Below, piece by piece: positions 4,667 through 61,294 of a DNA stretch of 64,000 bases. Source of the DNA: Methanocorpusculum sp. (GTDB taxonomy: Archaea > Halobacteriota > Methanomicrobia > Methanomicrobiales > Methanocorpusculaceae); the NCBI GenBank assembly GCA_017408885.1, contig JAFQTT010000009.1, forward strand, positions 1-64,000. Direction: 5' to 3'. The stretch's first letter is position 1. Every line of letters begins with the position of its first letter. The translations under genes and the position numbers were made by a program. Below the pieces are notes generated by a model that was not told the origin of the DNA, ran no database searches, and saw nothing but the letters and a program-made list of their open reading frames with translations.

Positions 4667-5845
4667 ATGCAGTATCGAGTAAACCCCAGAAACGGTGACC
4701 GCCTGTCAGTATTAGGATACGGATGTATGCGGTTCTCCAGAACAGCAGGCGTTACAGTGAATCAGAAGAAAACCGAAGAGGAGATGAACCTTGCTCTGTC
4801 GATGGGGGTAAATTACTTTGATACTGCCTATATTTATCCGGGAAGTGAGGCGGCTCTTGGGAAATTCCTCGCGAAAGGGCATAGAAAAGATATCTATCTT
4901 GCAACGAAACTTCCGTTTCGGCAGTGCAAAAAGCCGGAGGATTTTGAGCGGATTTTTGCAGAGCAGAAGAGCAGACTTCAGACGGACTATATTGATTACT
5001 ATATGGTCCATATGCTAGGAGACCTTGCCTCATGGGAGAAGATGGTGTCTCTTGGAATCGTTGAGTGGGCTGCTTCGAAGAAGGCATCAGGCGAGATTCG
5101 GCAGTTCGGCTTCTCGTATCATGGAGGAACAGCCGAGTTCAAAAAGCTCATTGATGCGTATGACTGGGATTTCTGCCAGATTCAGATAAATTATCTGGAT
5201 GCTCACTCGCAGGCAGGCATTTCAGGGATGCAGTATGCCGCAGAGAAGGGGCTGCCGGTTTTTGTGATGGAACCGCTTCGGGGCGGCAGTCTTGCGAATC
5301 TGCCGAAGAAGGCGGCAAAGGTTTTCACGGATGCGGATTCCACGCGAACACCTGTTGAGCAGGCTTTCCGCTGGCTCTGGAATTATCCGGAGATTACGGT
5401 TGTCTTGTCCGGCATGAATGATGTATCCCAAGTGGAGGAGAACTGTGCATCAGCAGATGCGGCAAAAGCGGATTCTCTGTCAGAGGCGGAGCTTGCGGTT
5501 TATGATAAAGTCTGCTCGGTGATAAATTCAGAGATTCGCGTGCCCTGTACATCCTGCGGTTACTGTATGCCCTGCCCGCACGGAGTGGATATCCCGTCCT
5601 GCTTTTCGGCATACAATCTCCGCTGGACGCAGGGCTGGTTTTCGGGGATGGTGGCTTATGTGACCTGCACTTCGCTGAAGGAGAAGTCGGCAGCGGCTTC
5701 TGCCTGCGTTAACTGCGGGCTGTGTGAAAAGAAGTGTCCACAGGGACTTTTAATCCGTGATTATCTGGATGAGGTAAAGTCGGTTATGGAAGGGCGGATT
5801 TATAAGGCGGCACTTCCGGTGGTGAAGAAGTTTTTAGAGCGGTGA
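4667..5845 (+). CDS. Aldo/keto reductase with C-terminal ferredoxin domain
   Basis: 392 residues. The N-terminal 280 residues form an aldo/keto reductase barrel with the usual catalytic set: Asp52 in NYFDTAY, Tyr57, Lys81 in ATKLP and His115 in MVHML. The C-terminus carries Cys motifs CTSCGYCMPCP (294-304) and CVNCGLCEKKCP (347-358), typical of two [4Fe-4S] clusters. This matches the iron-sulfur aldo/keto reductase group common in anaerobes. The substrate is unknown; the clusters suggest coupling to ferredoxin. It starts with ATG shortly after an AT-rich CTATTATCATAC stretch and appears to be a single-gene unit. Confidence 0.88.
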   Translation: MQYRVNPRNGDRLSVLGYGCMRFSRTAGVTVNQKKTEEEMNLALSMGVNYFDTAYIYPGSEAALGKFLAKGHRKDIYLATKLPFRQCKKPEDFERIFAEQKSRLQTDYIDYYMVHMLGDLASWEKMVSLGIVEWAASKKASGEIRQFGFSYHGGTAEFKKLIDAYDWDFCQIQINYLDAHSQAGISGMQYAAEKGLPVFVMEPLRGGSLANLPKKAAKVFTDADSTRTPVEQAFRWLWNYPEITVVLSGMNDVSQVEENCASADAAKADSLSEAELAVYDKVCSVINSEIRVPCTSCGYCMPCPHGVDIPSCFSAYNLRWTQGWFSGMVAYVTCTSLKEKSAAASACVNCGLCEKKCPQGLLIRDYLDEVKSVMEGRIYKAALPVVKKFLER

Positions 5846-45937: not shown

Positions 45938-48142
45938 TTACTCGCGGCGGAGGAGGAGGACTGCGACTGCGCCAAGACCTGCAAGTGCTGCAAGTGCTCC
46001 GAAACCTGGGGTTTCTGGTGCAACTGGCTCATCGTCTGCCGGCGGAGTGACTGGTTCGTCATCTGCTGGCGGGGTGACTGGCTGCTCTGGTGCTGCCTCA
46101 ACGACATTAATCTTTGCGGTTGCAGAGGATCCAAGTGCGTTGACTGCTGCGGTGAGAGTGTACTCATCGACGTTTAATCCAGAGGTATCGAAGGTGACTT
46201 CCCAGTTTCCATTCTCATCAGTCTTAGTGGTTAAGGAGATGAAGGATGCAGATCCAACGGTTGCCTTCGGGACTGCTGCGAATGCAGTAGAGAGCATCTC
46301 AACAGTTACAACTTCACCTGCTCCAACATTGGTGGAACCGGAGACGGTGAGCTTCTCACCCTGTGCAACAGTCTCTGGAATCGGGTTGATGACAGACTGC
46401 GGTGCTGCAACAACGAAGGAGAGCTTGACGTACATGTCGTCGATGTTCTCAGTGTCGAGTGCCTGGCAGAGTGCTTCTGCTGCGTTTGCCTTCTGACGCT
46501 CAGTGACATCGAAGAGGGTGTTTTCATCATTCGGGGAAGTGATGGTTGCATCGCCAGTGGAGTTCAGGATAATCTTGGTTCCATTTGGTGCAATGTTGAA
46601 CATCTTGTCGTACATCGGGTGCTGAATGACCATGAAGTACTGACCTGCTGCCATGTCAGCGACTCCCTGTGGAATCTCTGCTTTGACAGTGAAGTTGTTC
46701 TTCTTTAATTCAACAATTAAATCACTTCCAGTAAGGTCACCAGTTGCTGGTTTGCCACTCTGTGCTGCTGCGAAGAAGTTGGTTCCAAAGATGTATGCAT
46801 AGACACCTGCAGCTGCTTCTGCAGTTCCAGATACCTCGTAGGTGGATCCCTTAACAGCAACAGATGGTGCATCAGTGACACTGATGAACGGCTGCTTGAG
46901 AACGAGAGCAACGGTAGTGTAGGTTTCAAGATTAGTAATATCACCAGCAACTACAGATGTTGGTTCTGCTGCAACGTAGACGGTATAGGTTCCTGCATCA
47001 AGGTTGTTGAACACATTTCCAGCAATTTCGAATTCGAACTTTCCGTTCTTAACATCTGCAACATTGGATCCGCCAACAGTCTTACTGAGTGGCTGGAATG
47101 CAAGGTTGGTTCCTGCAATATAGAAGTTAACACTTGCACCTGCAGTGGAGGTACCAGTGATGACAACTTTGTTTCCAATGTAGTATGCATCCTTGTCTGC
47201 TGCTGCAGTGATGGTTCCCGGAATAATTTCGAAGGTAACTTCTGCTTTGTCACCAAGGCCTGCTGGCGGTGCAACAATAACAGTGTAGTCACCAGTGTTG
47301 ACTCCTGCTTCGAGGGTTACAACAACTTTACCAGTGTTCGGCATGATAACACCACTGGTTGCAATGTTTGCTCCTGCTGCCTGGGCTGGAATGGTGAATC
47401 CTGGTGCAGTAATGGTGTAGGTGACTCCCGGAAGACCGGTAATGGTAACATCTACAGTGTTACTTACGATAACAGAGTCAACTGCTGCAGTGATGGTCGG
47501 GTCTGCACCATCAACGATAGTGATAGTATAGACATCCTTACCTAAGATGACACCATCAAAGTTCTGCGGTGCAGTTGCAATGAATCCAGAAGTTGGATCA
47601 AAGTATACCTGTAATTTGTATGTTCCAGTAACAATATTTCCGTTTACATCCTGGAAGATACTTTCAGTGAAGGAAGATCCAGAGTGTGCTACTGGGACAT
47701 TGTCTCCACCAATTACAACAATACCGGCTGCTGCAATATTTCCAAGAGTCTGCGGAGTCAGTGTAAGGGTGGAAGTAGCATCTACTTCATAAAAGGATGC
47801 TCCAATTACCGGGTAGTTTGCACTTACGTAGGTTCCCTGGCCAACAATAACTCCGTTTGGATACATTACATTAATCTTGTAGTTACCCTGGGTGTATACT
47901 CCCTCGACAATGTTGTCTCCAACAATTGCCACTCCAGTTCCGGTTGGAACGAAGGTGACGCTGTCTGCACCCTTAGTCCAGGTGCCAGAATAGCCACCAG
48001 CGGCACCTACAGTGCCAGCAGTAACTTCTTCGTAAACGAACACAGTCTCACCAGCTCCACTTGCTGCTGCACCTGCTCCGATGAAGAGTGCTGCTGCAAG
48101 GAAAGCGACAAGGACTGCGCCCATAATTTTCTTTGCGTTCAT
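45938..48142 (-). CDS. PGF-CTERM surface (S-layer-type) protein 1
   Basis: 734 residues from the ATG at 48140-48142, preceded by TTAGGAGGAATAAAATTCAC. Signal peptide about 1-28 (MNAKKIMGAVLVAFLAAALF...). The body is beta-rich, with several Ig-like units. Near the end is a (TPPADDEPV)-type linker, then the sorting signal ETPGFGALAALAGLGAVAVL and a final RRE: the PGF-CTERM signal cut and lipid-anchored by archaeosortase A. It is probably a major cell-surface glycoprotein. Long stretches are nearly identical to the gene at 59165, and the two are in opposite orientation. Confidence 0.88.
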   Translation of the reverse strand: MNAKKIMGAVLVAFLAAALFIGAGAAASGAGETVFVYEEVTAGTVGAAGGYSGTWTKGADSVTFVPTGTGVAIVGDNIVEGVYTQGNYKINVMYPNGVIVGQGTYVSANYPVIGASFYEVDATSTLTLTPQTLGNIAAAGIVVIGGDNVPVAHSGSSFTESIFQDVNGNIVTGTYKLQVYFDPTSGFIATAPQNFDGVILGKDVYTITIVDGADPTITAAVDSVIVSNTVDVTITGLPGVTYTITAPGFTIPAQAAGANIATSGVIMPNTGKVVVTLEAGVNTGDYTVIVAPPAGLGDKAEVTFEIIPGTITAAADKDAYYIGNKVVITGTSTAGASVNFYIAGTNLAFQPLSKTVGGSNVADVKNGKFEFEIAGNVFNNLDAGTYTVYVAAEPTSVVAGDITNLETYTTVALVLKQPFISVTDAPSVAVKGSTYEVSGTAEAAAGVYAYIFGTNFFAAAQSGKPATGDLTGSDLIVELKKNNFTVKAEIPQGVADMAAGQYFMVIQHPMYDKMFNIAPNGTKIILNSTGDATITSPNDENTLFDVTERQKANAAEALCQALDTENIDDMYVKLSFVVAAPQSVINPIPETVAQGEKLTVSGSTNVGAGEVVTVEMLSTAFAAVPKATVGSASFISLTTKTDENGNWEVTFDTSGLNVDEYTLTAAVNALGSSATAKINVVEAAPEQPVTPPADDEPVTPPADDEPVAPETPGFGALAALAGLGAVAVLLLRRE

Positions 48143-48512
48143 GTGAATTTTATTCCTCCTAAATAAGGAATAAAATCGATTTTTGAACACGGCATGAATT
48201 TTAACGAAAACAAACAAAATCGACACCAAAAAATTTCAAAAATCCAAAAAATCCAAAAATCAAGATTACATCTTAGAAATATAGAATTAAAAAACCTCTC
48301 AAAAACACCTTCCAAAAACACTGTGAATTGCTCCAAAATCACCCTCAAATTCACACTGGAATACATCTCAATCCAAGCCCAAATTAAGCTCCGATTACCT
48401 CGCGCAACCACTCAAAAAACACCACATTCGTCAAAGAGCGAAATCGGCAAATGACGAAGACATAGGAACATAAGCAAACATCAACGAATAACAACAGAAA
48501 AGACACCAAAAA

Positions 48513-48620
48513 CGCGAATGTATGAAGAATCCGGATACCACCCCGGAAACATCCGCGCCTGAATACATTATGCTAATCTGGATAACTCCAGTAGTATTAA
48601 CGAGTAAATTACTCGTTTAC
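48513..48620 (-). ncRNA. Three-hairpin RNA-like motif, copy A
   Basis: Minus-strand RNA would form: an ACGAGTAA/TTACTCGT hairpin (48601-48617), a CTGGA/TCCAG hairpin (48578-48591) and a longer GCGGATG...CATTCGC arm capped by CCGG/CCGG (48513-48557). Copies B and C (57296-57406, 57896-58005) keep the stems with compensatory changes. A TATA-like TTTTTATTC lies just upstream on the minus strand. Some pairs are G-U on the minus strand but would be A-C on the plus strand, which favours minus-strand transcription. Confidence 0.5.
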
Positions 48621-48679: not shown

Positions 48680-48784
48680 TTATCCTCTCTTGTTCTTATC
48701 TCGACTCCTCTCACAGATTTCCCGTAAGACATTCACGACAGTATTTACAACTGCTGTAATTAACATAATGTATTCATAAGACAT
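48680..48784 (-). CDS. Tiny hydrophobic-helix protein, copy A (34 residues)
   Basis: The frame reads MSYEYIMLITAVVNTVVNVL, then RE, and ends in the charged tail CERSRDKNKRG. A single membrane-type helix (about 5-20) is followed by a basic tail. A second gene at 57468-57572 encodes a protein of identical length with the same ITAVxNTVVNxLREI and RDKNKRG segments. Most codon differences between them are synonymous, which indicates selection on the protein. AAAAGAGG precedes the ATG, and the stop codon lies in an AAGAGAGGA hairpin. The size and layout recall type I toxins; function unknown. Confidence 0.6.
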   Translation of the reverse strand: MSYEYIMLITAVVNTVVNVLREICERSRDKNKRG

Positions 48785-56004: not shown

Positions 56005-56985
56005 TCACTGAAGAATCTTCCAGTATCCGTTTTTGTTTGCACCGATGCGTGTGATTCGATTTTGTTGTTTGAGGGAGGAGAGAGAACGAGTGATTGTCGG
56101 GCGTGATTTTCCCGTCCTTTCAGAAAGTTCGTTGATACTGATTTTCGGGTTCTGTTTTATGAGTTCTAATATTGTTTGTTCAGTTTCATTTATAGTATCA
56201 TTTATGGTATCATTTATAGTATCATTATTTTGTTTTGAAATGAGTGCTTCTTTGATTGTTTCGAGCATGAACTCTATGAATGGTGTTGAGGTTCCGCTTT
56301 TTCCCGAGATGCTTAGTGCTTCGTAGTATTCTTTTTGTTTTCCAAGTATGAGGGTTTCAATTGGAATCCATGCAAATGATTTGTCCCAGGTGCTTAGGAT
56401 AAGTGTCTGCCATAATCTTCCAATTCTGCCGTTTCCATCAGTGAACGGGTGAATGAATTCAAGTTCGAAGTGGAAGACTGAGCTTTTGATGAGTGGATGA
56501 GCAGGTGTTTCTTTTGCCCAGAGAAGCAGGTTTTGGATTTGAGATGGGACAAGGTGTGCAGGCGGGGCTAAGTGTATGCAGGTTTCGCCTGAGAATACGC
56601 CGACTCCGCATGAACGAAACTGTCCTGCCTCTTTGGTTAGCCCTTCCATTAGGGTTTTGTGTGCTGTCAGCAGGTTTTTTTCTTCGTATGGGTTTAGTGT
56701 TTCTATCAGGTCGTATGCTTTTCCTGCATTTTTTACTTCGAGGATTTCGTTGTAAGGGCCGATTACTGCTTTTCCGTTTATGATGTCTGTTACTTGTGAA
56801 AGAGTTAATGTGTTGTTTTCTATGGCTAAGGATGAGTGGATGGATTGTATTCTGTTTGCTTTTCTAAGGTGCGGTTTTTTGTCAAGTGTGTTTTCTGCGG
56901 TGAGTTTTCCAAGCAGGCGGCTTATTTCAGATATTTTGTCGATGATGGTGTCTGTTATGGTGTATGGGGGAGATTGTATGGTCAT
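56005..56985 (-). CDS. Fic-domain AMPylase with C-terminal winged helix
   Basis: 326 residues. Fic motif HPFTDGNGR (179-187) provides the catalytic His and phosphate-binding loop used to transfer AMP to target proteins. The inhibitory helix, of form (S/T)xxxE, lies at SSLAIENN (51-58), so self-inhibition is expected. The C-terminal 60 residues are a winged helix (ISINELSERTGKSRPTITRS). Between them is NDTINDTINDTINE, encoded by tandem 12-base repeats near 56187-56225. The arrangement matches the common Fic plus DNA-binding proteins. Confidence 0.9.
   Translation of the reverse strand: MTIQSPPYTITDTIIDKISEISRLLGKLTAENTLDKKPHLRKANRIQSIHSSLAIENNTLTLSQVTDIINGKAVIGPYNEILEVKNAGKAYDLIETLNPYEEKNLLTAHKTLMEGLTKEAGQFRSCGVGVFSGETCIHLAPPAHLVPSQIQNLLLWAKETPAHPLIKSSVFHFELEFIHPFTDGNGRIGRLWQTLILSTWDKSFAWIPIETLILGKQKEYYEALSISGKSGTSTPFIEFMLETIKEALISKQNNDTINDTINDTINETEQTILELIKQNPKISINELSERTGKSRPTITRSLSSLKQQNRITRIGANKNGYWKILQ
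56187..56225. repeat. Tandem 12-bp repeats inside fic
   Basis: About three copies of a 12-base unit (TTTATAGTATCA-type) encoding the NDTI repeats between the Fic and winged-helix domains. Gain or loss of a unit would keep the frame and change linker length. Confidence 0.7.
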
Positions 56986-57168: not shown

Positions 57169-57218
57169 GGTGAAATTGGGTGGTGGAGTGGTTAACCATC
57201 ACATGAACTGATTTCACC
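57169..57218 (+). repeat. GTTAACCATCAC hairpin, copy 1
   Basis: GGTGAAAT (57169-57176) pairs with ATTTCACC (57211-57218) around an inner GTGGTGG/CCATCAC stem that contains GGAGTGGTTAACCATCAC. The inner core recurs in inverse orientation at 57712-57755 and 58069-58112, where the outer stem is GTCGG/CCGAC instead. Confidence 0.5.
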
Positions 57219-57295
57219 ATATTTTTTTCTTATGAGTTTGGATGTGGTGTAATTTAGATTAAAAGAAATATGCGGGAAAAAAGTGCTCACCAAAA

Positions 57296-57406
57296 GCACG
57301 GACTTGGGTTTTCCGGTCATCACTCCGGAAAACATCCGCACTCTGATTCAATTATCATCATACCGGAATAAATCCCGGTTTGTTCTAACGAATCATGGAT
57401 TCGTTT
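57296..57406 (-). ncRNA. Three-hairpin RNA-like motif, copy B
   Basis: On the minus strand: AACGAATC/GATTCGTT (57388-57406), ACCGGGA/TCCGGT-type hairpin (57362-57379) and a long arm with GTTTTCCGG/CCGGAAAAC (57296-57341). The middle stem differs from copy A by compensatory changes (CTGGA/TCCAG against CCGGG/TCCGG). It follows the 34-residue frame at 57468-57572 on the same strand, beyond a TATA-like TTTTTATTC. Confidence 0.5.
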
Positions 57407-57467
57407 ACATGAATTATATGGTACTCAAAAGAATAAAAACTCTTGCACCAAGATAAGAGAGAGGATG

Positions 57468-57572
57468 TTATCCTCTCTTGTTTTTATCTCGATGCCATTC
57501 TCTGATTTCTCGGAGAATATTTACTACTGTGTTAATCACAGCAGTGATGATGATAATTGAATCTGCGGACAT
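57468..57572 (-). CDS. Tiny hydrophobic-helix protein, copy B (34 residues)
   Basis: The frame reads MSADSIIIITAVINTVVNIL, then RE, then IREWHRDKNKRG. Same length as copy A and identical at most helix and tail positions, with many synonymous differences. The ATG follows AGAGGACA. The stop codon lies in an AAGAGAGGAT/ATCCTCTCTT hairpin that could end transcription. The leader carries two small hairpins conserved with copy A (GCTGA/TCGGC and TCCAG/CTGGA). One membrane helix with a basic tail; function unknown. Confidence 0.62.
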   Translation of the reverse strand: MSADSIIIITAVINTVVNILREIREWHRDKNKRG

Positions 57573-57699
57573 GATGTTTGTCCTCTTTTGTTAATCCAGT
57601 TAAGTCTGGAGCCGACAAAAATCAGCACATATCAATTCTTCCTTAAACCAAATAACATCATCGAAGTTTTGAGAGATGGGATAAAAACGGTTGAGTTAA

Positions 57700-57755
57700 T
57701 TTTAGCAAAAGGAGGTGAGGTCGGTTTTTGTGATGGTTAACTACTCCATTCCGAC
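57700..57755. repeat. GTTAACCATCAC hairpin, copy 2
   Basis: Shares about 55 bases with 58056-58112 with few differences. On the minus strand GTCGG/CCGAC closes a hairpin around TGGAGTAGTTAACCATCAC. On the plus strand, an AAAGGAGGTGA site precedes an ATG at 57733 that opens a 17-codon frame; its sequence is not conserved past eight codons, so a hairpin role is more likely. Confidence 0.45.
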
Positions 57756-57895
57756 TCAATATCCATCCAGATTATTACAGGTATAATGTATGCTTTTGGA
57801 GTATATGTATTTCATCCAAGATGTGGTAGAAATATGCTGAGAGTGTGTTTAGATTTTATCTCGAAATGAGTTCTTGAAAATAGTGTGTCACAAAA

Positions 57896-58005
57896 GCACG
57901 GATGCTTAGATTTTCCGGATACCATCCCGGAAAACATCCGCACTTCGAACTCATATTAGGAATCTGGAATTACTCCAGTTCGTTCTAACTAATCTATGAT
58001 TCGCT
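57896..58005 (-). ncRNA. Three-hairpin RNA-like motif, copy C
   Basis: Minus-strand stems are at 57987-58005 (with a mismatch), 57964-57978 (CTGGA/TCCAG) and 57896-57943 (GTTTTCCGG-type arm closed by GCGGATG/CATCCGT). A TATA-like TTTTATTC lies near 58031 on the minus strand. The order and spacing of stems match copies A and B. Confidence 0.5.
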
Positions 58006-58055
58006 GACATAATTAGATGGTACTTAAGAGAATAAAATACTGTTCCAAAATAGCT

Positions 58056-58112
58056 TTTAGCAAAAGAGAGGTGAGGTCGGTTTTTGTGATGGTTAACAAC
58101 TCCATCCCGACC
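58056..58112. repeat. GTTAACCATCAC hairpin, copy 3
   Basis: Near-identical to 57700-57755. A strong TATA box on the minus strand, CTTTATATAG near 58156-58165, lies about 45 bases upstream, so on that strand the hairpin would fall in an early transcribed region. Confidence 0.45.
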
Positions 58113-58154
58113 CTATCTCTGTTCAAATCGTGCAATTAGTATTATGTTGCAGAA

Positions 58155-58310
58155 CTATATAAAGGTCTGCCTGTTGAACTCTAATAAAATAGTGAGAGTT
58201 TGACCTCTCACTATTTTTTTTGTCAGTATCTGATACCATAATCTGATTTCTTTTGATATGGTTGTCAGAATGACAACTATGAAGACGATTTGAACAGAAA
58301 TATTTCTCAC
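58155..58310 (-). pseudogene. Divergent or decayed relative of the tiny proteins, copy C
   Basis: From a GTG at 58310, inside AGGAGGTGAG, the frame reads VRNISVQIVFIVVILTTISK, then EIRLWYQ, and keeps the KEIRxW segment seen as REIREW in copy B. At the place where copies A and B stop, this frame reads GGTCAA instead of GGATAA and runs on to 51 residues. A GTGAGAG/CTCTCAC hairpin lies there too. There is no ATG in frame. It may be a decayed copy or one using a non-standard start. Confidence 0.4.
58191..58221 (+). terminator. Bidirectional hairpin terminator candidate
   Basis: AATAGTGAGAG and CTCTCACTATT pair around a six-base loop. The plus strand follows with eight T residues (58214-58221), the minus strand with four. 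It would stop transcripts from either side. Confidence 0.5.
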
Positions 58311-58389: not shown

Positions 58390-58704
58390 CTTTGCTCCAA
58401 AATAGAATTGTTGTGTGTTTCCAAGGCTCTAAATCCATGATGAAAAACCGCAGATAACGCTGATGCAGGCTTCGCCTGCGCAACGCGTCGCTCTCGCCTT
58501 CGGCGAGCTGCTGTTGCAGTCGCTTTGGCGTTGCCAAAAAGTATTGCCCATCTATTTTCAGCAGCTCCAAAGCGGCTGCGACAGCAGGTTTTGCCGCAGG
58601 CAAAACAGCGACGAGCTGCGCGAGCGTGAGCTCGCATCAGCGTTATCTGCGGTTTTCCAAAATGAGATTGTTGTTATCCTCATGAAACTAATTTTGGAGC
58701 AAAG
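58390..58704. repeat. Compound palindromic repeat near surface gene 2
   Basis: Outer arms CTTTGCTCCAAAAT (58390-58403) and its inverse (58691-58704) enclose perfect inner arms 58444-58466 and 58634-58656 (23 bases). The middle is GC-rich with more short palindromes (GGCTTCGCC, CGCCTTCGGCG). The inner arms begin AAAACCGCAGA, as in the element at 3573-3688, so both belong to one family. Confidence 0.72.
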
Positions 58705-59164: not shown

Positions 59165-61294
59165 ATGAACGCAAAGAAAATTATGGGCGCAGTCCTTGTT
59201 GCTCTCCTTGCAGCAGCACTCTTTGTTGGTGCAGGCGCAGCAACCTCAGTAAACGGTCAGACTGTGTTCGTATACGAGGTAGTCACTGACTCCAACATCC
59301 AGGGTACTTGGGCAAATGGTGCAAACACCATTACCTTTGAACGAGTCACTGGTGGATGGGCAATCATGGGTGCCGACATCGTTGAAGGTACTTATAAGAA
59401 AGGCAGTGACTCCATCATTGTAAAATACGCGACCGCCGCAATTACTGGAAAAGGAACCTATGGAACCTCACCTGTAATTAACTATGGTGTCATTGATGGA
59501 ACTTACTACAATGTTACTGGTTCTTCCCTGACCATTAAAACCTCTAGTGCAGATGGTATTGTTGTAATCGGTGCAGACGGTATCCCGGTACCAATGTCCT
59601 CTCCAATTACCACTCTCACTGAAGGAACTTACAAGTTACAGGCATACTTCAAGATTTCTGGAGGAGCTGTAACCTTTGTTGAGACTACTCCGGCAGACTA
59701 TGTCTATGACAACACCGTAGGCAGCATCCTCTTAGGCAAAGCAGCATACACCATTACTGTTGTTGATGGTGCAGACCCGACTATTACTGCAGCAGTTGAC
59801 TCTGTTGTCGAAAGCAGCACTGTAGATGTTACCCTCACCGGTCTTCCGGGAGTTGTCTACAACATTAGTGCACTAGGATTCAGTATTCCAAACCAGGCAG
59901 CGGGAGCAGACATTGCAAACGTTGGTGTTGTCATGCCGAACACTGGTAAAGTTGTCGTAACCCTCAAAGCAGGAAGCACCATTGGTGACAAAACCATTCT
60001 TGTAGCTCCGTTTAATGCTGCTGGTGACGAAGCAGAATTAGAGATTGAAATCCTTGAAGGAGAAATCACTGCAGAGACTGATGCAGAAGCCTACTACATT
60101 GGCAACGATGTTACCATCACTGGAACCTCCACTGCAGGAGACAAAGTATACTTCTACATTGCAGGAACCAACGTCCCATTCCAGGCTCTTGACTCCAATA
60201 TCTTAAATGGAACTATCGATGGTAGTGCTTATGAAAAGGCTGTAAAGAACGGTAAGTTCAAGTACGAAATCGATGGTGATGTATTCAACAAGCTTGATGC
60301 AGGAACCTACACTGTCTATGTTGCAGCAGACGGACTTAAGACTGCTGTAAATCAGTTAGACACCTACACCACTGTTGCCCTTGTTCTCAAGCAGCCGTTC
60401 ATCAGTGTCACTGATGCACCATCTGTTGCAGTTCAGGGAACCAAATACAAGGTAACTGGAACTGCAGAAGCAGCATCTTCTATTCAGTACTATGTATTCG
60501 GAACCAACTTCTTCGGCAACAACTCTGCAAATGTCAAGGAAGGCAGTTTCAAGATTGAATTCACTGTCAATGCAGCTGATATGGATGCAGGTCAGTACTT
60601 CATGGTTGTCCAGCACCCAATGTACGATGAGAAATTCAACATCTGGGTCGATGGCACTGAAATTAAGCTTGCAGAAACCAAGAATGGTGCAGTAGACGAA
60701 GCAAATGCAACCGTCCTCTTTGATGTTAAAGACCGTCAGAGAGCAAACGCAGCAGAAGCACTCTGCCAGGCACTCGACACTGAGAACATCGACGACATGT
60801 ACGTCAAGCTCTCCTTCGTTGTTGCAGCACCACAGTCTGTCATCAACCCAATTCCAGAGACTGTTGCACAGGGTGAGAAGCTCACCGTCTCCGGAACCAC
60901 CAACGTTGGAGCAGGAAAGGTTGTAACTGTTGATCTGATTTCCACTGCATTCGCAGCAGTACCGAAGAGCACTGTCGGTTCCGCATCCTTCATCTCCTTA
61001 ACCACTAAGACTGATGAGAATGGAAACTGGGAAGTCACCTTCGACACCTCCGGATTAAACGTCGATGAGTACACTCTCACCGCAGCAGTCGAGGCACTTG
61101 GATCCTCTGCAACCGCAAAGGTCAATGTTGTTGAAGGCGCACCGGTCAACCCAGACCAGCCAGACACTCCGGATGTCCCAGACACCCCGGACACCCCAGA
61201 CACTCCAGATGCACCTGAAACCCCAGGTTTCGGAGCACTTGCAGCACTTGCAGGTCTTGGAGCAGTCGCAGTCCTCCTCCTCCGCCGCGAGTAA
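59165..61294 (+). CDS. PGF-CTERM surface (S-layer-type) protein 2
   Basis: 709 residues. The signal peptide is nearly identical to paralogue 1 (MNAKKIMGAVLVALLAAALF). The body has Ig-like beta units; residues from about 520 to 660 are almost unchanged between the two. The linker before the anchor differs: here PDTPD repeats instead of TPPADDEPV. The end has ETPGFGALAALAGLGAVAVL and RRE, the PGF-CTERM signal. Likely exported, processed by archaeosortase A, lipid-anchored and glycosylated. Strong promoter and leader upstream suggest this is the expressed copy. Confidence 0.88.
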   Translation: MNAKKIMGAVLVALLAAALFVGAGAATSVNGQTVFVYEVVTDSNIQGTWANGANTITFERVTGGWAIMGADIVEGTYKKGSDSIIVKYATAAITGKGTYGTSPVINYGVIDGTYYNVTGSSLTIKTSSADGIVVIGADGIPVPMSSPITTLTEGTYKLQAYFKISGGAVTFVETTPADYVYDNTVGSILLGKAAYTITVVDGADPTITAAVDSVVESSTVDVTLTGLPGVVYNISALGFSIPNQAAGADIANVGVVMPNTGKVVVTLKAGSTIGDKTILVAPFNAAGDEAELEIEILEGEITAETDAEAYYIGNDVTITGTSTAGDKVYFYIAGTNVPFQALDSNILNGTIDGSAYEKAVKNGKFKYEIDGDVFNKLDAGTYTVYVAADGLKTAVNQLDTYTTVALVLKQPFISVTDAPSVAVQGTKYKVTGTAEAASSIQYYVFGTNFFGNNSANVKEGSFKIEFTVNAADMDAGQYFMVVQHPMYDEKFNIWVDGTEIKLAETKNGAVDEANATVLFDVKDRQRANAAEALCQALDTENIDDMYVKLSFVVAAPQSVINPIPETVAQGEKLTVSGTTNVGAGKVVTVDLISTAFAAVPKSTVGSASFISLTTKTDENGNWEVTFDTSGLNVDEYTLTAAVEALGSSATAKVNVVEGAPVNPDQPDTPDVPDTPDTPDTPDAPETPGFGALAALAGLGAVAVLLLRRE

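Follow-up and report, generated by a model that had tools for sequence, protein, structure and literature searches.

The window, by which we mean the whole stretch of 64,000 nucleotides analyzed, contains two intact 34-amino-acid ORFs on the minus strand, ORF B at 57468-57572 (MSADSIIIITAVINTVVNILREIREWHRDKNKRG) and ORF A at 48680-48784 (MSYEYIMLITAVVNTVVNVLREICERSRDKNKRG). The plus-strand reading of the same stretches is interrupted by in-frame stops. A sequence-only reading of this DNA had described the two as copies of equal length sharing ITAVxNTVVNxLREI and RDKNKRG and differing mostly in synonymous positions, and we observe the same, with differences at 17.2 of 22.3 synonymous and 14.8 of 79.7 nonsynonymous sites over all 34 codons. 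Over codons 9 to 34, pS is 0.78 and pN is 0.13; dS is saturated between the two ORFs, so that no dN/dS value is computable. GAGG precedes the ATG of both ORFs, in line with the ribosome-binding sites proposed, and the leader hairpins (57611-57626 and 57596-57609) as well as the hairpin at the stop codon of ORF B (57455-57479, minus strand; a possible mRNA terminator) are visible by eye rather than by fold statistics. A tblastn-type search with B alone recovered A at an E value of 5e-10, beyond chance, and within the 33 family genomes it found four more ORFs, spread over three other genomes, at 2e-7 to 4e-14 (G021 and G022 together account for three, at about 1e-13 to 4e-14, and G015 for one, at 2e-7), with another in G021 at 0.002. 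AlphaFold2 predicts a single helix spanning residues 3 to 33 (pLDDT 89.5). The proposal that these ORFs have the layout of type I toxins is supported, and we infer from their sequences that the peptides would be translated and toxic.

What the earlier description had missed is that 17 to 19 nt at the start of ORFs A and B have their complement some 200 nt downstream. The arms of these inverted repeats, of 17 to 18 nt, lie 181 to 185 nt apart on the same strand; they carry different letters in A and B, and both arms covary between the copies. In ORF B, the 17-nt target at 57547-57563 (minus) is complementary at 17/17 positions to 57345-57361 (minus), the guide segment of a putative small RNA, sRNA B, whose approximate extent (57290-57407, minus; type 1 scaffold) follows from alignments and a consensus fold, and which is laid out as two small hairpins, the guide, and a long 3' hairpin. 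In ORF A, the target at 48758-48776 (minus) forms a 19-nt run with a score of 18.0 with the guide segment at 48560-48578 (minus) of sRNA A (approximately 48507-48618, minus; type 1 scaffold, delimited in the same way). This covarying downstream RNA supplies the antitoxin that was missing from the first description, and the toxin-antitoxin reading thereby becomes testable.

Also overlooked were a third ORF and two scaffolds without an ORF. ORF C (58155-58301, minus) is a divergent toxin-like ORF of type 2, detected at an E value of 0.002 by a type 3 HMM that was built without it. It has ATT in the start position after GGAGGTG, and the stop of its relatives is out of frame, which extends it to 48 amino acids instead of about 29. 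The guide segment of sRNA C (58114-58131, minus) is complementary to 58285-58302 and adjoins a type 2 scaffold at 58062-58116 (minus) that matches the RNA model R1 at 1.6e-10, the sequence itself having been included in building R1. An orphan type 2 RNA at 57706-57778 (minus; scaffold 57706-57756, guide 57758-57778) lies outside the alignment of that model and matches it at 1.3e-8, and its guide fits a toxin of a sister genome (G021:C54:24042-) with a score of 15.5. An orphan type 1 RNA without its own type 1 ORF lies at 57890-58006 (minus), and a weak type 2-like scaffold lies on the opposite strand at 57175-57226 (plus; R1, E=6.8e-4).

Several other features surround these elements. Two long, similar PGF-CTERM surface proteins of opposite orientation flank the region (45938-48133, minus; 59165-61294, plus). 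Next to the array is a Fic/DOC protein (56005-56985, minus; Pfam Fic, E=1e-18) that has a winged helix at its C terminus and a linker in which NDTI is repeated, and a similar linker is seen by eye beside the G021:C54 loci. A 36-nt inverted repeat (58436-58471 and 58629-58664) contains CAGATAACGCTGATG, a word also present near G021:C27.

In total, we recover 57 related loci of three types, plus fragments, in 9 of 25 Methanocorpusculum genomes (G000, to which the window belongs, G015, G016, G020 to G023, G025, and G026), with 15 copies in G020, 14 in G021, and 9 in G000. Seven ORFs are of type 1 (34 amino acids), 33 of type 2 (mostly 28 to 30), and 17 of type 3 (about 47 to 57), the tail of the last being encoded across what appears by eye to be a terminator hairpin. 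All but one (56/57) measure 28 to 57 amino acids, the exception being G020:C20, which runs past 70. The predicted peptides consist of a short hydrophobic helix followed by basic sequence centered on R-E-I-R-x-W or a related motif, and as such are small hydrophobic peptides in the size range of type I systems (below about 60 amino acids).

The distribution was followed with an HMM built from three type 2 ORFs (A3), which was run on the 33 family genomes and gave a wider set; HMMs from this set (A5 and A6) were then applied to the order (232 genomes). Outside the genus, no match at an E value of 0.001 or below was obtained with A5 in the class sample (232 genomes, as many as for the order) or with A6 in a 392-genome sample of the phylum. 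Weaker matches outside the genus are G126 (E=0.008) and G038 (E=5e-4). Where a match carries a name, it is Methanocorpusculum: the sources are goat cecum, dairy cattle colon, and water deer colon, and one assembly is called M. parvum. Pfam and NCBIfam returned no family at E values up to 10 for four proteins, such profiles being weak for peptides this short, and PADLOC returned none for three proteins. In the window, Rfam gave nothing at gathering thresholds. Pattern-based scans of IMG/VR with A2 and A7 found no relative, and plasmids and phages gave no match to the type 3 peptide used as the query. Two observations from G021 stand beside this survey: a divergent peptide ORF with a downstream hairpin (MDKLISAVILAAYISREIRGW...; G021:C48 in L113, at about contig position 4700, minus), placed outside all counts, and an apparent CRISPR array, recognized as a repeated peptide in translation, some 600 to 750 nt past the start of a type 2 ORF (L036, G021:C63).

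The peptide ORFs are under coding selection, as had been claimed for the protein in the window. Outside the guide target, pooled pN/pS is 0.20 for 6 type 1, 0.32 for 20 type 2, and 0.34 for 14 type 3 ORFs, values that are uncorrected proportions at a high pS of 0.5 to 0.8. Inside the target it is 0.48, 0.75, and 0.33, respectively, i.e., nominally higher in types 1 and 2 and not in type 3. Among the findings named as speaking against the protein were a lack of homologues elsewhere and frameshifts in other strains. For the most part these did not occur: there are homologues, and of disrupted copies we saw one clear pseudogene with an in-frame stop (G020:C21) and the displaced stop of ORF C.

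Type 2 starts were set by Shine-Dalgarno (SD) spacing (three of them by eye) and not by the codon. At this position, 28 of 33 ORFs have ATA (12), ATC (11), or ATT (5), and CTG, ACG, ATG, TTG, and GTG occur once each. No ATG, GTG, or TTG is present from codon -1 to codon +3 of the start in 25/33, and three near-identical ORFs have an ATG one codon upstream of the set start. Isoleucine is frequent in helices of this kind. Given the AUA, AUC, or AUU starts, translation of the type 2 ORFs is doubtful; a poor start codon combined with a strong SD would be in keeping with a toxin.

Pairing between ORF start and downstream RNA is specific to the cognate pair. For the ten loci examined first, the site of best complementarity, measured from the reference start, is 203 to 212 nt (type 1) or 174 to 182 nt (type 2) away in 10/10, a count that, like every count of consistency here, is inflated by the common ancestry of the paralogues. 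Since the top score among 60 shuffles was at least as high as those of L029, L030, and L035, the comparison was made across loci. Using RNAduplex with fixed windows on 51 nonredundant loci of 55 usable ones, we obtain a cognate mean of -26.9 versus a noncognate mean of -13.1 kcal/mol (sd 4.0), where the windows were fixed after site positions were known and are identical for all loci of a type, except at two split loci (see below), where the window was placed from the scaffold. The cognate RNA is best in 44 of 51 rows plus one tie and in 39 columns, a result reached by none of 10,000 permutations. Within types, it is best in 6/7 (type 1), 26/28 plus one tie (type 2), and 13/16 (type 3), again with 0/10,000 permutations each. 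A noncognate RNA is better in six of the 51 rows; the row of G026:C42 fails with its guide outside the window and reaches -29.6 once the window is moved. G021:C49 and G021:C62, at contig ends, were left out. Through this cognate, covarying pairing, an RNA complementary to the toxin mRNA, as type I systems have, is present.

Ungapped scores against the whole downstream region agree for 44 loci (51 listed, minus 2 dropped and 5 redundant; the pseudogene G020:C21 and G021:C15:2, at a contig start, were left out). The cognate mean is 15.9, and the noncognate mean is 10.0 (sd 1.66, maximum 17.5); controls give 9.6 for the own upstream region (n=41, maximum 14.5), 8.9 for far-downstream sequence (n=39, maximum 11.5), and 9.5 for direct repeats (maximum 13). 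The cognate RNA is best in just 30/44 rows in this test, partly since stretches resembling an SD fit many different RNAs. Picked-guide scores show larger differences for type 2 but are biased toward the cognate, the guides having been chosen by their match to the own ORF, and were set aside. Type 2 RNAs run in the order guide, hairpin, and a tail like UCACCUCC that is able to pair with the toxin's GGAGGUGA, and in 25 type 2 loci this tail-SD pairing scores 11.0 for cognates versus 9.9 (P=0.0006), the tail being picked independently of the match. A search for the same pairing in types 1 and 3 found none (P=0.91 and 0.62).

The RNA scaffold is conserved. In all three types we observe a two-tier hairpin with a GG/CC-closed tip, the likeness between types being judged by eye, and predicted pairs are changed on both sides at 8/11 (type 2), 4/31 (type 1), and 3/16 (type 3). 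For type 2, 95.8% of cells are paired compared with 83.4% in shuffles, and 50 cells are double sided compared with 17 (0/500 shuffles in both cases); sliding the scaffold by 1 to 3 columns leaves 21 to 55% paired. Among the best 150 first-look candidates scored per genome, a hand count gives at least 42 R1 matches at E<1e-5 in 8 genomes and at least 23 matches to a second model, R2, at E<1e-6 in 5 genomes, all of which have peptide genes. Weak R1 matches (E of 1e-4 to 0.1) in peptide-free genomes were treated as noise. In 24 type 2 loci, the best TATA-like box lies at a median of -72 from the toxin start and -32 from the guide. Toxin boxes fall inside one 6-nt window in 20/24 loci (at most 8 in 500 shuffles) and score 7.12 against a shuffle maximum of 6.42, so type 2 toxin promoters are clear. 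RNA boxes fall inside one 6-nt window in 16/24 (shuffles, at most 10) and score 6.56, within the shuffle range of the same AT-rich stretches (mean 6.34, maximum 6.61); being well placed yet no stronger than this, they are the weaker evidence, and type 2 RNAs are likely to have a promoter of their own.

At two loci (G021:C39 and G000:C3), an insertion with two transposases separates the toxin from its RNA, and the pairing persists across the split of 4.7 to 4.9 kb. Counted from the toxin start, the guide sites are 4,898 and 4,694 nt away, and 18/18 guide pairs (2 G-U) and 16/16 tail pairs are retained. The transposases are DDE_Tnp_1 by Pfam in L239, with near-identical ORFs seen by eye in L238; the insert occupies about 1340-6060 in L239, ends in GGCTTTGCTCC and GGAGCAAAGCC, and has the direct repeat GCTATGAGG on both sides. 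It probably reflects one event, since it occupies the same site in both genomes. The split toxin of G000 carries a Trp-to-Leu change.

RNAs occur without peptide genes, and the reverse is not seen. None of 55 usable peptide genes (G025:C81 and G025:C64 among them found via their RNA) lacks an RNA: in type 2, 31/31 usable genes have an R1 match (25 of these RNAs built R1); in type 3, 15/17 have an R2 match (10 built R2), and the other two (G016:C33 and G020:C15:627) have strong guides of rank 1 with a different hairpin; and in type 1, alignment places the scaffold in 7/7. Conversely, 16 RNAs have no peptide gene of their own in a motif scan of at least 390 nt upstream (8 by R1, 7 by R2, and the window copy, type 1 orphans being counted in the window). 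Another four RNAs were left uncounted, as two are truncated at contig ends, one has 260 nt upstream, and one lies beside a pseudogene. Like the window orphan at 57758-57778 described above, the guides of G020:C5:140242 (16.5) and G015:C19:184672 (17) fit toxins of sister genomes, and the remaining orphan guides reach best scores of 9.5 to 14. At the orphan G015:C14:125219 (L250, about 1640-1770), a toxin start appears by eye almost directly fused to a matching guide and scaffold, as if the toxin body had been deleted. This one-sided loss is our main argument for toxicity. Split loci, orphans, and box positions all point to a separate RNA, the strength of the boxes being within the shuffle range.

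We hold with good confidence that each locus is a type I toxin-antitoxin module and that the family is a superfamily with trans-acting guide antitoxins. The first gene would encode a peptide of mostly 28 to 57 residues with a hydrophobic helix and a basic stretch, and the second, located downstream of it in the same orientation, a small RNA combining a guide (about 14 to 27 nt) with a two-tier hairpin. Once transcribed, the guide would pair with the cognate peptide mRNA at its start region, and in type 2 the 3' tail would also pair with the SD, the combined duplex blocking ribosome loading. Were the RNA lost or no longer made, an mRNA presumed to be the longer lived of the two would become available to ribosomes, and membrane damage by the translated peptide would then arrest the cell. 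Such modules may serve addiction or abortive defense.

A rival explanation places ORF and downstream arm on one transcript whose 3' arm hides the start codon until processing, with no separate RNA. The hok mRNA behaves in this manner, its 3' arm folding back over the start codon until processed. Both parts are on the same strand at a fixed spacing, an identical complementarity would be expected, and the RNA promoter boxes are no stronger than chance. A fold-back of this kind is nevertheless quite unlikely, as the pairing survives the transposon insertion of 4.7 to 4.9 kb, 16 scaffolds have no peptide gene, a hairpin and T-rich sequence are seen by eye between the parts, and the RNA box keeps a consistent position. 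An RNA that combines guide and scaffold also recalls CreTA, in which a crRNA-like guide for Cascade represses a toxic RNA, and L036 adjoins an apparent CRISPR array (by eye). We consider such a module very improbable here, since the toxin of CreTA is a noncoding RNA whereas the peptide is under coding selection, the guide matches the ORF start, and the guide is followed by its scaffold hairpin, on one side, where the antitoxin of CreTA is flanked by CRISPR-like repeats.

An artifact of alignment or of a repeat family is hardly credible: the copies do have a common ancestry and are located among repeats, but both arms covary, and the gap between cognate and noncognate pairs is large with fixed windows. 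More serious, if fairly unlikely, is that these are antisense-regulated small membrane proteins with a benign role. Toxicity of the peptides is deduced here, and TimP is tolerated at its native level in Salmonella and toxic if overexpressed, according to excerpts of PMC7667032. Against a benign role stand the one-sided loss (an RNA may lack its peptide gene, but no usable peptide gene lacks an RNA), the high copy number (15 in G020 and 14 in G021), and the pseudogenized peptide of G020:C21 beside a surviving RNA.

Under the type I reading, which we prefer, the superfamily is, as far as our literature searches show, the first of the type I toxin-antitoxin kind in Archaea. With somewhat more reserve, we think it likely that this first archaeal superfamily forms a swarm of paralogues with a constant hairpin and a fast-changing guide, with weak non-AUG starts in type 2 and orphans that are possibly protective. 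If so, the fast-changing guide would give each module its own specificity, orphan antitoxins may shield their host from toxin loci that related strains carry, and an AUA, AUC, or AUU start behind a strong SD would be a built-in weak translation in type 2. A large archaeal family would extend the type I principle to another domain of life, and its natural guide/target pairs, some 50 in one genus, would provide data on the diversification of antisense specificity. Two points are each testable, namely initiation at non-AUG codons throughout a gene family and fixed-scaffold guide RNAs in a methanogen.

According to a 2025 paper (PMC12390103, in excerpt), type I systems had been reported solely from Proteobacteria, Firmicutes, and Tenericutes, to which it adds Cyanobacteria. 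We recognized no archaeal type I system in the titles and abstract beginnings of open-license literature; for Halobacterium, excerpts of PMC6523106 describe antisense RNAs of type II systems. By analogy, the Methanocorpusculum modules would work like ZorO-OrzO and TimP-TimR and differ from them in orientation, site, and domain of life. ZorO-OrzO and ZorP-OrzP of Escherichia coli likewise have a 29-amino-acid toxin, an sRNA whose 5' end has 18 nt of complementarity to the toxin mRNA, and duplicated loci with target-specific RNAs, as the excerpted text of PMC3919570 states. Their genes are divergent, whereas the Methanocorpusculum modules are tandem on one strand, and OrzO pairs with the long 5' untranslated region and not with the initiation site, at which the Methanocorpusculum guides pair (PMC3919570 and PMC4147584, in part). 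The second, tail-SD pairing of type 2 is unlike ZorO-OrzO, these systems being compared by description. TimP-TimR of Salmonella also combines a small membrane toxin with an adjacent antisense-type sRNA repressor whose site keeps its position between species, but it has divergent genes, a signal-sequence toxin, and a site more than 60 nt upstream of the ribosome-binding site (PMC7667032, excerpts). MsoT1/MsoA1 of Microcystis is similarly a type I system beyond the classic phyla, though a bacterial one (PMC12390103, excerpts). CreTA systems occur in archaea. As partially available accounts describe it, CreTA shares the RNA-guide antitoxin, but its toxin is an RNA and its guide acts through Cascade, whereas the Methanocorpusculum modules appear to combine a peptide ORF with pairing to mRNA.
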